Shown here: piece after piece, positions 3,753-63,678 of the stretch
Numbering within the stretch: position 1 is the stretch's first letter
How the letters are laid out: each line of letters opens with the position of its first letter
From: Phoenix dactylifera
Lineage: Eukaryota; Streptophyta; Magnoliopsida; Arecales; Arecaceae
NCBI RefSeq assembly: GCF_009389715.1
Contig: NC_052400.1
Coordinates: forward strand, 21,235,674 to 21,299,673
Length of the DNA: 64,000 bases
Reading direction: 5' to 3'
Made by a program: the position numbers and the translations under genes
The notes under the pieces: generated by a model
What the model was told of the DNA's origin: nothing
Database searches by the model: none
What the model saw: only the letters and a program-made list of their open reading frames with translations

Positions 3753-6278
3753 TTAGGATTTTGGGTACATCATAAGAGGTACAGCAGACAACTTGTTCGT
3801 GTTATCCTGTTCAGCCTTTATACTGCTTGGCTCATCTATAGCCATGGGGCCAATCTCTGAAGCCTGGTACATGACAATAAGGAGAATGTTGTCTAAAACG
3901 AGCACAAAAATCATTTTGTATGATAGTCTGATTTCAGTTAGATGTCTATAATAGTCACCTTCAAGGATGAGATCTCCTCGGCCATAGGCTCCACAGCTTT
4001 GGCAAGGTCTGCAGCAACTTTGTGAGGTTCCTGCATGGTCAAGGAATTGAATAGTAAGAAAAAAGAGAAGGGAAAAAACAAGAACATATAGAACTGGATG
4101 GCACATCAGTAGCAACCCTGAGTGCTATAAAATTTTCGCTGCTGCAGCTTAACTAATTTGAGAAGATAATTTGAAAAAATGTACAATATCTAAGAACCAT
4201 TCTTAAAGTTGATTCTTCTAGAGTTCTATCATAACTCATTTTTTTGTCATTCAAAAATTTTGTTAAGTCATTTGAGTCTTTTGATCATTACAATAATATT
4301 TTTTGTTCCAAGTTCAGATGATGGGTTCCATCAAACATCCCAGGAAAGACATAATTCATAATAAATCTTCAAACATGTTTGAACTGGTGTTAAAAACAAA
4401 ATAAAGTAAATTAGAAAAAAACAAAGAATAATAGAGAATGAGTTGTCATATTTCTTTTCATTCTTCATTATGAAGAGAATAAAGCTGCCATTTTTGATAC
4501 AAAGCATTGTAAACAAGGAGTTTTCTTCCCCCTTTCCTCCTTTTCTTCTCATTTTAAAAAGAATCCAGCTATTATTTTGAACTTCAAAAGGATTCTTTAC
4601 CCATCACTTAGCAACGGTCTTCTGAGTTACATAGTGTTAATGACAGACACCGGGGCGATTTAGGGCCTCTTTTTAGGGATCAACCTAGGATCCAAAGAAT
4701 AGGCAGGCGAGACCCTTCACTAGGGTCAATAGGTCTTTTAGAGAGAGAAGAGGGAGATGAGAGAGAAAGAACAGAGGAAATAAGCGCGAGAGAAAGGGGT
4801 GGTTTCTCTCTCCCTCTTTTTTTTCTTTTCTTTTCTTCTTTACGCTCTCCTCCATTGCGAAACAGGGGTGGGGGGCGAGAGCGCACCCCACCGACGGCGG
4901 CTATAGCCGGAGGACCAGCGGCACAAGGGCAAGAGAACGACCGCCGATGGTGACAAACACAGAGAGAGGTAGAGGATTTTCCGATGATCTTTCACTGGAT
5001 TTTGGCCATTGTTGGGTCAATTGGAAAAAGGAAGAACAAGAGAGGAGACAGGGACCTTACCTTGACTCTGAGGAGGCGTCGGCAACCCCGATTTTCGGCG
5101 AGAATGGAGACGGGCAGCTGCGAACTCAGGGAGAAAAAGAGGGAGAGGAAAAGAGGAGGATTACTCAGAATGGAGAGCTTAGGAGGGAGAGAGCTCTCCC
5201 TTTATAGAGGAGCCTTAGGGTCTCGGCGACCTAAAACTTCGACTCCTAGTCGGAATCACTGAAGGAGAAGACTCCCAGAGGGAGTCTTCCGTGCTTAGCC
5301 ACTCCATAGGCCAGGCCTCAGGTCAGGCCGATCGAGTGGATCGGACCCAGACCAGGCCTTCACATTCTTTCCCCCTTAAAAGAGGTTTGTCCTCGAAACT
5401 TAATGCACCTTCATTCTTAAACAAATGGGGGTATTGAGTCTTTATCTAATACTCCACCATACTTCCACTGCGCGACTTTGATCTATACTAACTCTTCTAT
5501 ACTTGTCCTATGCCTACTTTATGAATCATAACCCTAAGCTTAATTTTCTACCCATGATCAAGCCTATTGCTCTGATACCATATTATAACAACCAAGGACC
5601 TCACCTAAAATGGCTAGTCGGAAGGTATTATTTGAATTTCTTGATCTTATATAAGTACCCAAGATTTACCTAGCGGAAAAACGATGTGGGACTAAATACA
5701 CACCCGCACAGGTCTCCACATGAACACTACCCCGTCACTGTTTTCTCCTACTCCCTAGTCGACTAACCTCCTCTAGTCTCTCTGGCCAAAATCGCCTTGG
5801 CTCTACCGACAGCCATCACCAACTTCTTGATCGTGGCAAACCTTGTCCTATGTTCCTCTCCTTGTTTCCCTCTCACCAATGTCCTTGCAAACGTAAACTG
5901 TAGTTCCACTAGATCTAAATAAGCCCTATGCCCCAACGTCCTACCCTTGCTAGAATACTGACTCCTCTAATGCTATCCAGGTTTAAGACCAACCCTAACA
6001 AGCCACCATCTCTATCTTCCATTGCCAAGGAGAAATTATTGGTGGGACTCGGTCCACCAGCTTAGCGGTGGACAGGTCCGACCACGTAGCAACACGCGCA
6101 AACATGATAAAAAAAGAAAGAGGGGGAACATAGTAATATAGGCGTGTTTGCGCGTGTTGCTCTGTGGTTGGACTGGTCCACCGTTGAGATGGTGGACTTG
6201 GTCCAACCAATAATTTTTTCTTGTCAAGGCCCTGATGTCATTCTATGGACCTTCTCCATCTCCAACAAGAAGCTGAGC

Positions 6279-22732: not shown

Positions 22733-23072
22733 AAATAGAGTAATGTGCTAAGTTATTCAAGGAAGATATCTGCAAGTTTGGATGCATGTAACCTTATAGT
22801 GTAATGGATAGAACAAGATAAAAAAATAATATTGCAATAGTGAACATATAACCTCTTTATATGAGATAGAAGGAAGCACAAAATCTGAAAGCGGGCCTGC
22901 ATAAATAGAATAATGTGCTAAGTTATTCAAGGAAGATGTCTGCAAGTTTGGGTGCATGTAGACCTTACATGTAATGGATAGAAGAAGGTAAGAAATGATA
23001 TTGCGATAGTGAAAATATAACCTCTTTATATGACATGAAAGGAAGCCCAAAATCTGAAATAGGGCCTGCAGC
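22733..23072. repeat. 170-bp tandem duplication covering an exon end
   Basis: Units 22733-22902 and 22903-23072 align with an offset of 170 bases. Anchors are AATGTGCTAAGTTATTCAAG at 22742 and 22912, and CCTCTTTATATGA at 22852 and 23021. The unit includes the last 16 or so codons of a CBS-protein exon, its GT donor and following intron sequence. The outer copy has diverged by several substitutions. Confidence 0.9.
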
Positions 23073-29684: not shown

Positions 29685-35457
<5,773 letters not shown>

Positions 35458-36959: not shown

Positions 36960-39120
36960 TTCAGCAACAACAAATTACAGATATGCTAAGCAATTCCATG
37001 TAGTCTTTGATGCATCCTTGGGCATTTATTTCTCCATGTCGTCCACAGTTCTTCTATACCACTTAGTGATTGTGGTGTGTGAAGCGCCTTCATGATTTGC
37101 TGCCAAATATGTTTGATTCCCATTCATCCTGCTAGAAGGCTGTTTGATTCCCATCTCCAACCTTGAGACGTAAGCTTTGAAAGAACTAATTTCTGGACTT
37201 CATCACACTCTTCCAATTAGTGGATGCCGACCCTGATTGATAGAGGGGTTATCTGATTTGGTAATCTACTTGCATAATCTGCATTCTAAATAATCCTTCT
37301 CCGAGGCCTGTCGTGTTCTCTATAGTATCTCCACCATCTCTTTATTAATAGACATTAATTGGTTAAAGATTTTGAGATTAATAAGTCCCAATCCTCCTAT
37401 TTCCTTGGGTCTGCAAACCTGCGACCGCCTAACAAGACAATGGCACCCATAGCACGTCATACTTCCTCTCCACAAGAAGTCCCTACGATTCTTCTCAATT
37501 TTCTTGATTATCTCAGCCGGTATGAGGAGAGAAGACATCCAATGGACTAGTATATGATCCAAGTATCCAATTGATGAAGGCCAGCCTTCCTCCAATGGAC
37601 AGAACCTTAGCCTTCCATGCTGATAGTTTTTTCTCTATTTTCTCTACTAAGGAGATACATCTGAATTTCTGAGTTTGGTTAAATGTAAGGGAAGACTCGA
37701 GTACGTTAATTGTTGGCAATTTTGATAAGCTACAGCCCATCAGGTCAGCAAAAGATTTGCATTTCGAATCTGATATCCCCACTCCAATCAACGAATTTTT
37801 TTAAGAGTTTATTTGGAGCCCTGTAAGAAGTTCAAAAGAGTATAAAATAAACTTGAGATCAGATGCGTACCTCTTGCTTGTGCTGTATAGAACTAGAGTA
37901 TCATCTGCATGTTGTATAAGAATTTCAGCTGAGTTATTTGAGGTTCCCATTACTTTAATCATCTTGTTCCTTACTGCCACCTTTAGCATGCGATCTAAAA
38001 CATCAGTCGCCAAAATAAAAAAAGAGGGAAGGGAGGGGACCTCCTTGCTTAATTCCATTTTTAGTCTGAATCCAGTTTGTGCGCGGGTTCTCCATTTATG
38101 AGGAGTGCAATTTTGCTCATTTGTAGGATTGAAGCAACCATTTTGCACCAAATCTTCTTGCTCCAAGGAGGGAGATAAGGAAATGGTTCTTGAAGATCAT
38201 CCTCAAGAGATTGAAATAATCCTTGAAGATCTTTCTGGCCTACGATTGTTCAAAAAATAATCGAACTTTGTTGCAGTGTCCCCTAGTCATAATCACCATG
38301 ATCGGCCCATGGTCGGCTGCAATGTATCCATGCTGTAGTGTCCTCTTGCCTATATAGATTATGAGTTAGGTCCGCTTTGATACCATTTGTCACAATACAT
38401 GACTTTACCTAAAATGGCTAGCCGGAAGGTATTATTTGAGTTCTTGATTTTATATTATAAGTACCTAAGATCTACTCAACGAATAACTGATGTGGGGCTA
38501 AACACATGCCCGTAAGGATCCTCACAAACAGAGTTCTAACAGGTTAAAATTTCTCATACTGAGCCAACTGCATACTGATACCCATGAATCAAAGGTCGTT
38601 CCATATGCTGAAGAGATTATATCTGATGTGATCCGATTGAGTTTAGTTTCTTGAAAACAAACCACTGAGCATTTAGAGATATTCATAGTGTCCCTAATCT
38701 AAGTTCATTTTGCTAGTTTCCTCGTTCCCCTCACATTCCAAAATAATATTCCCATTATTTCTTACAATAAAAACTGACTTATATATTTCCCGGTGGGAAA
38801 AAAGAGTATGAGCATAGATATTGCATGCGGATCATAATAAAAGGATTCTTGATGAACACTTCTTTGGTTGTCCTTCGACATCTGCCCACGAAACTAGAAA
38901 AAATAGAGGTTGTATCCCGTCGAGATTCTTCCATAAGACTTGTTAAGATGAGGGAATCAGAAGGGGATGGCTCGGTCATCAAGGCAATGACCAAAACCGG
39001 AGCCACTAGTTGCACTGCAAGAGAGGGGATCATGCTCAAACTACCACATATAGAATTAGGGAATAGCATCCTGCATCTCTTTCTTAGGGACCTTATTTCA
39101 ACCACTGTGAGAGAATTTAA
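36960..39120 (-). mobile_element. LINE (L1-type) fragment, broken and interrupted
   Basis: From the right, the minus strand shows MGILFWNVRGTRKLAK (38756-38709), the start of an apurinic endonuclease domain. The TRIM LTR at 38526-38388 then interrupts it. Reverse-transcriptase pieces follow: LIQHADDTLVLYSTS (about 37925-37880; the usual F/Y before ADD is His), VEKIEKKLSAWKAKVLSIGG and RLAFINWILGSY (37660-37560), then LIPAEIIKKIEKNRRDFLWR and CRPKEIGGLGLINLKIFNQL (37525-37360). It has many frameshifts and stops and is clearly dead. Confidence 0.8.
38374..38526 (-). mobile_element. TRIM-family LTR (copy D) with primer-binding site
   Basis: A minus-strand LTR of 139 bases starts TGTGAGGATCC (38526) and ends TGTGACA (38388), followed by TGGTATCAAAGC (38385-38374). 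It contains AGCCCCACATCA and a TATAATATAAA box 28 bases apart. It sits inside the LINE fragment, so it is younger than that LINE. Confidence 0.75.
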
Positions 39121-39131
39121 AAGCGAATATA

Positions 39132-39762
39132 TGATGACTTGTGCATACATGTGTTTAGTTCCATATTAGTTATTCATTGGAAAGATCTTGGATATTTATA
39201 TAGAACTAAGGAGCCCAAAAGATACCTTCAGGTTAACCTTTTTGGATAAGATTCTGGGTTGTGATACATAGTATTAGAGCAGACCCAATCCATAACTTAT
39301 ATAGACTAGTTGATACTACTGCACGGATATATTTGAGCTAACCCCGAGCTGATTGTGATATTTGTGCTTGAATTTGAATGGATTTGACTCTTTAGTCTAA
39401 CGAGGACACTAGAGCTTAAACAGGTTAGCCTTTTTAGGTGAGATCCTAGGTTGTTATAAAATGATATCAGAGTGGATCCGGCCTATGGTCCATGTGGACT
39501 AGGGGATACTCCAACACGGGCTCATTGAGGCTGATTACAGGCTAATTTTCATGGTTGTGATTGGATTTGAATAAATTTATACTCTTAGTCTGACGAGAAT
39601 GTCACGACTTAAACGGAGGAAGTATGTGAGGACTTGTGCAGGTGTATGTTTAATCTCATATCGATTATTCGCCGGAAAAATTTTGAATACTTATACAGAA
39701 GTAAAAAAACTCCCAAAATACATTCAAGCTAGCTTTTTTGGGTAACATTTTTAGTTGTGACA
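39132..39762 (+). mobile_element. TRIM chain: LTR-internal-partial LTR-internal-LTR
   Basis: Plus orientation. LTR E is 39132-39268, with primer-binding-like TAGTATTAGAGC (39269-39280). An internal region of about 140 bases is followed by only the last 39 bases of an LTR (F, 39421-39459). TGATATCAGAGT (39462-39473) and a second internal region follow, then the polypurine tract AAACGGAGGAAGTA (39611-39624) and LTR G (39625-39762, 138 bases, TGTGAGGA...TGACA). The two internal regions share TAGTCTAACGAGGACACTAG or TAGTCTGACGAGAATGTCAC and other blocks. Unequal recombination between TRIM copies explains the layout. Confidence 0.78.
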
Positions 39763-40216
39763 AAATATCTTCCGGCTATAGAGTATCTTATTCTGATCCA
39801 AAGAGTTTTTTTTTTTTTTTGCACACAACCTTGTACTTCTTTTAGAGGTTTGGCGGGCTATTTCCTGGTTGGTTGGAAGTAGGTTCTTCCAAACCCTAGA
39901 GAAGGAGGAGGGTAGCTTCTATGAAGACTCATTGCAGTCGTCTCCTAGGGTGGCAGACCTTTAGGTTTTGGTAGGGCGTTGGCATAGCCCATTTCATCCC
40001 ACACTTGGATAGTTAAGTCTTACCTAATATATTTTCAAATTTTGGTGCGTTTTTGAATTTCCCAAATGTTGAATTTTCTTTCTTGTGGTGTAAAACCAAG
40101 ATGCCAAACTCGCGATTATATGTCAAGAATCATTACATGATCCAAGATCCAAGGACCCTTCCAAGCAAATAAAGTATAAGAAGCTTTGTATGTGTATGTA
40201 TGTGTGTGTATGTATG

Positions 40217-63482: not shown

Positions 63483-63678
63483 GTCACAGTGTAAGTTGTA
63501 GATCCATTATAGGCATGTCTGAAGTCCTTTTATGATTAGAAAACATTGTGTTAGGGTTGTTTGAATGACTATAAATACAGGTCACAGCATAAGTTGTAGG
63601 ACCATTATAGGCATGTCTGACGTCCTTTAATGATTAGAAAACATTGTCTTAGGGTTGTTTGAATGACAATAAATATAG
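63483..63678. repeat. 98-bp tandem duplication
   Basis: Units 63483-63580 and 63581-63678 share CCATTATAGGCATGTCTGA, ATGATTAGAAAACATTGT and TTAGGGTTGTTTGAATGAC, with a few substitutions. Confidence 0.92.

Follow-up and report, generated by a model that had tools for sequence, protein, structure and literature searches.

TRIMs encode no proteins. The closest elements described, those of Kojima's TRIMp3 class (Cassandra, Helenus and Ajax), are tiny non-autonomous LTR elements, in which an LTR promoter of the small-RNA-gene type is thought to be used; in the available text of PMC10886601 only Pol III promoters derived from 5S or tRNA genes are described for them, and Cassandra is counted as the sole lineage for which Pol III-driven transcription is validated. 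The family described here, F1, is like TRIMp3 in these general traits, but differs from what that text reports in the origin of its putative promoter: no Rfam match with E<=1 was found in the F1 element of locus L017 or in the element of a second family, F3, at locus L021, no tRNA was found in the former, and an upstream sequence element (USE) followed by a TATA-like box is present instead. In plant U6/U3 and U2/U5 genes, as presented in the accessible parts of PMC9845283 and PMC545797, the same extended USE is found, with a TATA-like box at a comparable distance, and, according to the former, the USE of Pol III snRNA genes is closer by one helical turn. F1 differs from these promoters in its weaker box, in a spacing that falls between the two classes and in being embedded in an LTR.

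Two other systems offer partial parallels. The SMART elements of grasses are very small and TRIM-like, with a TATA box in the LTR, and their authors identified no polyadenylation or termination sequence; the accessible portion of the paper (PMC3281118) mentions no USE, and reports an unspecified 11-bp LTR motif common to SMART and FRetro64. F3 resembles SMART in layout, with a period of 289 bp, the comparison being one of layout alone. A functional parallel is found in trypanosomatids, where, in the sections available from PMC8190864, the retrotransposon promoter Pr77 is bound by TBP and by the snRNA activator subunit SNAP50; unlike the F1 arrangement, it belongs to protist non-LTR elements, is a 77-nt promoter located at the 5' end and is served by Pol II. 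The words promoter, TATA and snRNA did not occur in a term search of the accessible text of Gao et al. (PMC4717578), and none of the listed titles and abstract openings of open-licence papers described a plant LTR with a promoter of the snRNA type, which does not prove that no such description exists.

The analysis started from a window, the whole stretch of 64,000 nt of Phoenix dactylifera DNA under study (GCF_009389715.1, NC_052400.1:21,235,674-21,299,673, forward strand). One F1 LTR, copy A, lies in it at 5584..5720, with the element sense on the minus strand. It is 137 bp long, as defined by its sequence, the LTR structure of the family and target site duplications (TSDs); a sequence-only reading had placed it at 5583..5720, with a size of 138 bp, and its limits are here corrected to about 5720-5584. 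The same reading had noticed, on the minus strand, GTCCCACATCG, 27 bases and then TTATATAA, and this order was confirmed at 5692-5682 and 5654-5647. The USE GTCCCACATCG (5682..5692, minus strand) has TTA immediately before it, like the USE of snRNA genes, and the TATA-like box TTATATAA, 27 nt past it (5647..5654, minus strand), has mostly the form TTATACAGG in the family. Further downstream, a TTTT within CCATTTTAGG (5607..5610, minus strand), 82 nt from the USE start, is a candidate Pol III terminator, and the primer binding site TGGTATCAGAGC, which we take to be of the initiator-Met tRNA type, is at 5569..5580 on the same strand.

Additional, degenerate F1 sequences were located in the window by BLAST. 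An element at 32227..32671 (minus strand) includes copies B1 and B2, a pair of LTRs at a distance of about 302 bp, and single LTRs are found at 38374..38526 (copy D, minus strand), 39129..39281 (copy E, plus strand) and 39624..39766 (copy G, plus strand). The USE carries one mismatch in B1 (32.3 kb), two in B2 (32.6 kb, absent from the earlier list), two in D (38.5 kb), four in E (39.13 kb), all of them C>T or G>A, and two in G (39.63 kb). The distance from USE to box is 27 in B1, E and G and 28 in B2; for D it is 27 according to the BLAST alignment and 30 according to the box chosen by the script. The view that B, D, E and G keep the same order of USE and box is thus upheld, with gaps of 27-28 if the alignment of D is followed. 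Copy A contains the sole exact RTCCCACATCG of the window, and near-matches are not in excess within it, 15 being found with up to two mismatches vs 17.3 expected. The window also contains two two-copy tandem duplications, one of 98 bp at 63483-63678 (91% identical) and one of about 170 bp at 22733-23070 (86-88% identical).

F1 is a genuine, complete TRIM, with a short LTR pair, TSDs, a primer binding site and a polypurine tract (PPT). The element at L017 is 439 bp overall and has two 137-bp LTRs, 98.5% identical, with TG..CA ends; TSDs of 5 bp were found in all three F1 elements examined (GTATG in L017, GTAGC in L025, ACTTT in L012). The primer binding site TGGTATCAGAGC starts two nt past the LTR, and the PPT is GGGGGGAGTA. 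Since the interior is only 165 bp long, the family presumably has no coding region. The L012 element has three LTRs in tandem; tandem LTR arrays were seen in both F3 (289-bp period) and F1 (302-bp period), at C1:3096125-3098562 and L012.

A whole-genome search with the F1 LTR gave 3515 candidates at first look, 40 of which, copy A included, were scored and showed 84-100% identity. The exact USE was found in 19 of 20 close copies fetched, so that RTCCCACATCG proves to belong to the family, and the box lies at a near-fixed distance from it. Among the first 100 listed of 793 sites with both flanks of the box intact, the box is TTATACA in 86, TTATATA in 7 and another sequence in 7. At a gap of 27, TTATACA was found in 14 and TTATATA in 5 of the 19 exact-USE copies picked by BLAST, and the distinct F1 copies of the contig C1 sample gave 26 TTATACA, one TTATATA and 9 other sequences out of 36. 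When TATATA was looked for 15-45 nt after the USE, it started at exactly 28 in 67 of 83 F1-like cases among the first 100 listed of 536 places. A TATA-like box whose distance from the USE hardly varies is therefore a trait of the family, but the perfect TATA box of copy A is a minority form; the two forms differ by a C>T change, and TTATACA, the family form, is a weak TATA match.

Preservation of the USE within the family was considered as a sign of function, and rejected. The first 100 listed of 1101 USE sites and of 950 control-block sites, with intact flanks and from the same LTR, were compared: the USE (R allowed) was exact in 60 of 100, and the control 11-mer, for which the second base could be A or C, in 47 of 100 (35 of 100 otherwise; Fisher p 0.09). 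Changes at positions 2-11 of the USE are C>T or G>A in 52 of 62 cases. Dead copies all decay in the same way, so that evidence has to come from comparing families.

In the whole genome, the exact USE occurs at 6252 sites, vs 626 for the reversed motif and about 391 expected from the window composition; followed by TATATA within 15-45 nt, it occurs at 536 sites vs 11, the reversed motif being the only control in these whole-genome counts. Of 100 exact-USE sites listed from the start of contig C1, 76 were read and assigned to families by comparison with strings from the sampled sites, the threshold being 50% identity over 36 nt. Six repeat families were obtained: F1 (37 sites, one of them called "other" by the script and assigned by eye), F2 (16), F3 (13), F4 (4), F5 (4) and a CACTA-like one (2). 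In F1, F2 and F3 the host sequence is a TRIM-like LTR, at the start of which 14-28 bp precede the USE (28 bp in F1). In F5, a larger repeat, the USE is internal and antisense to the primer binding site. F4, an LTR element of roughly 9 kb, has the 11-mer in the middle of a 1.6-kb LTR, preceded by CGC and followed by no box; this probably represents a coincidental match.

All families but F4 have the extended USE WTAGTCCCACATCG, and an AT-rich box follows it, in most cases at 23-28 nt. The trinucleotide WTA (TTA or ATA) precedes the USE in 67 of the 76 sites, and in the representatives of F1, F2, F3, F5 and the CACTA-like family; at the base composition of the window, chance would give it in at least five of six families with a probability of about 3e-6, and in at least four of five with about 5e-5, the families being taken as independent and the test having been chosen post hoc. 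Measured from the end of the USE, the box is found at 28 in F1, 24-26 in F2, 24-26 in F3, 23-25 in F5 and 22-29 in the CACTA-like family (23-26 in 12 of 15); the boxes of F2a, F2c and F3 are two mismatches away from TATAWA.

The CACTA-like family (L007, about 1225-1925, in the C1:457466 region; L060) has ATCCCACATCG or GTCCCACATCG and, at a U6-like distance beyond an A-rich spacer, TTTATATA. This kind accounts for 15 of the 100 listed of the 536 USE plus TATATA places, with spacers of 22-29; in the copy at L007, which includes the USE, Rfam gave matches only below the gathering scores. At L100-L103, a repeat of more than 1.2 kb looks as though it had an internal antisense promoter, with a USE and a TTTAAATAAC/TAAATA box oriented against its TGGTATCAGAGC primer site; in L100 a further USE, degenerate, lies upstream. 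The LTRs of F2 and F3 (L018-L021) have a short GGACAATA motif in common, and show, as judged by eye, an apparent small TTTTG/CAAAA hairpin 3' of the box.

Families were also compared by BLAST, with both F2a and F2b used. In 14 of 20 comparisons the best shared stretch, 12-35 nt long, was anchored on the USE; upon masking it, the best E was 6.6e-4, for the LTR end and primer binding site of F1-F3, all others being 0.016 or worse. Between F1 and F2b, a 35-nt match of 80% identity includes the USE and part of the spacer; because it extends beyond the USE, their promoters may not be independent, and a distant kinship may link them.

The genome's own snRNA genes provided a calibration. Searches gave 48 hits for U6, 29 for U2, 9 for U5 and 28 for U3, and a subset of the upstream stretches was read. 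Sixteen of the 48 U6 promoters were examined (L089-L099 and L127-L131), and seven, with no recognisable USE (L097, L099, L127-L131), were left out; these hits may therefore be pseudogenes. Fourteen of the 29 U2 stretches were examined: two were used, L105, whose USE is one base short, was only described, and eleven had no recognisable promoter or were masked. All nine U5 promoters were examined, and the nine U3 promoters fetched, out of 28, were all kept. WTA precedes the USE in each of the 29 usable promoters, and the extended USE of two U2 genes and of most U5 genes read, TTTAGTCCCACATCGG, is identical to that of F1. An snRNA-like architecture had been proposed for the LTR of copy A; it is now borne out by a USE and box that are family-wide, recur in other repeats and have an extended form matching the genome's own snRNA promoters.

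The two classes of genes differ in spacing. In the Pol III genes, U6 and U3, the box is 22-27 nt from the USE in nine of the ten promoters with a clear one, and at 28 or 30 in one U6; the range rests on ten genes, since eight of the 18 promoters used had no clear box (for one U3 a wider scan gave a one-mismatch box at 17). In the Pol II genes, U2 and U5, the distance is mostly 31-35, with 40 in one U2 and 30 or 32 in L105. The USE starts at -64/-65 in U6/U3 and between -76 and -83 in U2/U5. An initial leaning towards Pol II, derived from U2 and U5, was dropped because the U3 genes, transcribed by Pol III, showed boxes at 25-27. By this yardstick, spacing appears to favour Pol III for F2, F3, F5 and the CACTA-like family, and the value of 28 in F1 lies between the two classes. 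The suggestion that the F1 spacing is nearer to the Pol III arrangement is hence retained in a mild form, on the basis of own Pol III genes at 22-27 and of the other families, mostly at 23-26; for F1 itself, 28 remains intermediate with respect to a Pol II range of mostly 31-35.

The explanation considered best, with modest confidence, is that the F1 LTR holds an snRNA-type core promoter, whose spacing, taken together with that in the other repeat families, points more to Pol III than to Pol II, and that its RNA is mobilised by the proteins of another element. The promoter would consist of the extended USE WTAGTCCCACATCG, 28 bp inside the LTR, and of the TATA-like box 27-28 nt downstream, to which the host snRNA activating complex and TBP would bind. 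Counted from the USE start, transcription would begin some 64-65 nt downstream, around LTR position 93-94. The polymerase would cross the primer binding site and the body and reach the 3' LTR, where the predicted RNA, of about 320 nt, would end; proteins supplied by another element would then mobilise it. For the repeat promoters as a group, a Pol III-like activity seems likelier than a Pol II-like one, judging from the arrangement of the motifs.

Termination is less straightforward. In the two intact elements examined, the TTTT at LTR 111-114 is the only run of four or more T in each LTR, and none is found in the body. The candidate terminator pointed out earlier is thus present downstream of the box, but in both LTRs it falls 17-18 nt past the expected start, so Pol III would stop within the 5' LTR unless this copy is read through. 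Avoidance of T-runs was tried as evidence for Pol III, and discarded: T-run counts were within those of shuffled sequences in six stretches, being not below the shuffle mean in five and well inside the shuffles in the sixth. A more specific proposal, advanced only tentatively, is that of a new TRIM class, in which the LTR would be an external, type-3 (USE plus TATA) Pol III promoter, R would run from the start near LTR 93-94, and Pol III would ignore the TTTT 17-18 nt later in the 5' LTR but stop at it in the 3' one; the arrangement would be common to three TRIM families of this single plant, in at least two of them independently, and to a CACTA-like transposon.

It is unlikely, but deserves more weight than the other alternatives, that the same snRNA-type element directs Pol II, with the TRIM RNA being polyadenylated, as in ordinary retrotransposons, through the AATAAT found at LTR 89-94. 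Box quality points in this direction, as the weak boxes of the repeats seem to resemble those of the genome's own Pol II U5 genes L118, L124 and L125 (TATATGAAA, TATAATGCG and TATACATGG, with TATACA in L125), and so does the identity of the extended USE of F1 with the TTTAGTCCCACATCGG of U2 and U5 genes. The spacing, 28 in F1 and 24-26 in F2 and F3, is however below that of the genome's U2/U5 genes, 30-35 (40 in one U2), and a start 76 to 83 nt from the USE, at about LTR 105-112, would make R very short. A plant snRNA 3' box was not found in four F1, F2 and F3 stretches.

Quite improbable is an ordinary Pol II LTR promoter, not of the snRNA type, in which the USE-like sequence serves as an activator site for some other factor, for example a TCP-type one. 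TCP sites look similar (GTCCCAC), and F4 does carry the 11-mer within its long LTR with neither WTA nor box; against this, the extended snRNA form and a box at similar spacing are found together in five families, two of which have them outside LTR promoters. Chance, with the 11-mer sitting in a few high-copy repeats and amplified with them to a genome-wide excess, is very improbable: copy number alone does turn a few chance occurrences into thousands, F4 probably being one, and only the reversed motif serves as whole-genome control, but WTA is present in five of six families, a box at 22-29 also in five of six, and in three TRIM families the distance from the LTR start to the USE is 14-28 bp.

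Should the snRNA-type core promoter, favoured above, be used by several TRIM families, thousands of dispersed copies would be potential small-RNA promoters. Searches for new plant snRNA-type genes based on the USE would then be swamped by repeats, and the natural variants would allow a test of the classic rule of USE-TATA spacing. Repeats equipped with the switch of splicing-RNA genes suggest, as far as their motifs tell, that such elements may borrow the small-RNA transcription machinery of the host for copying themselves.
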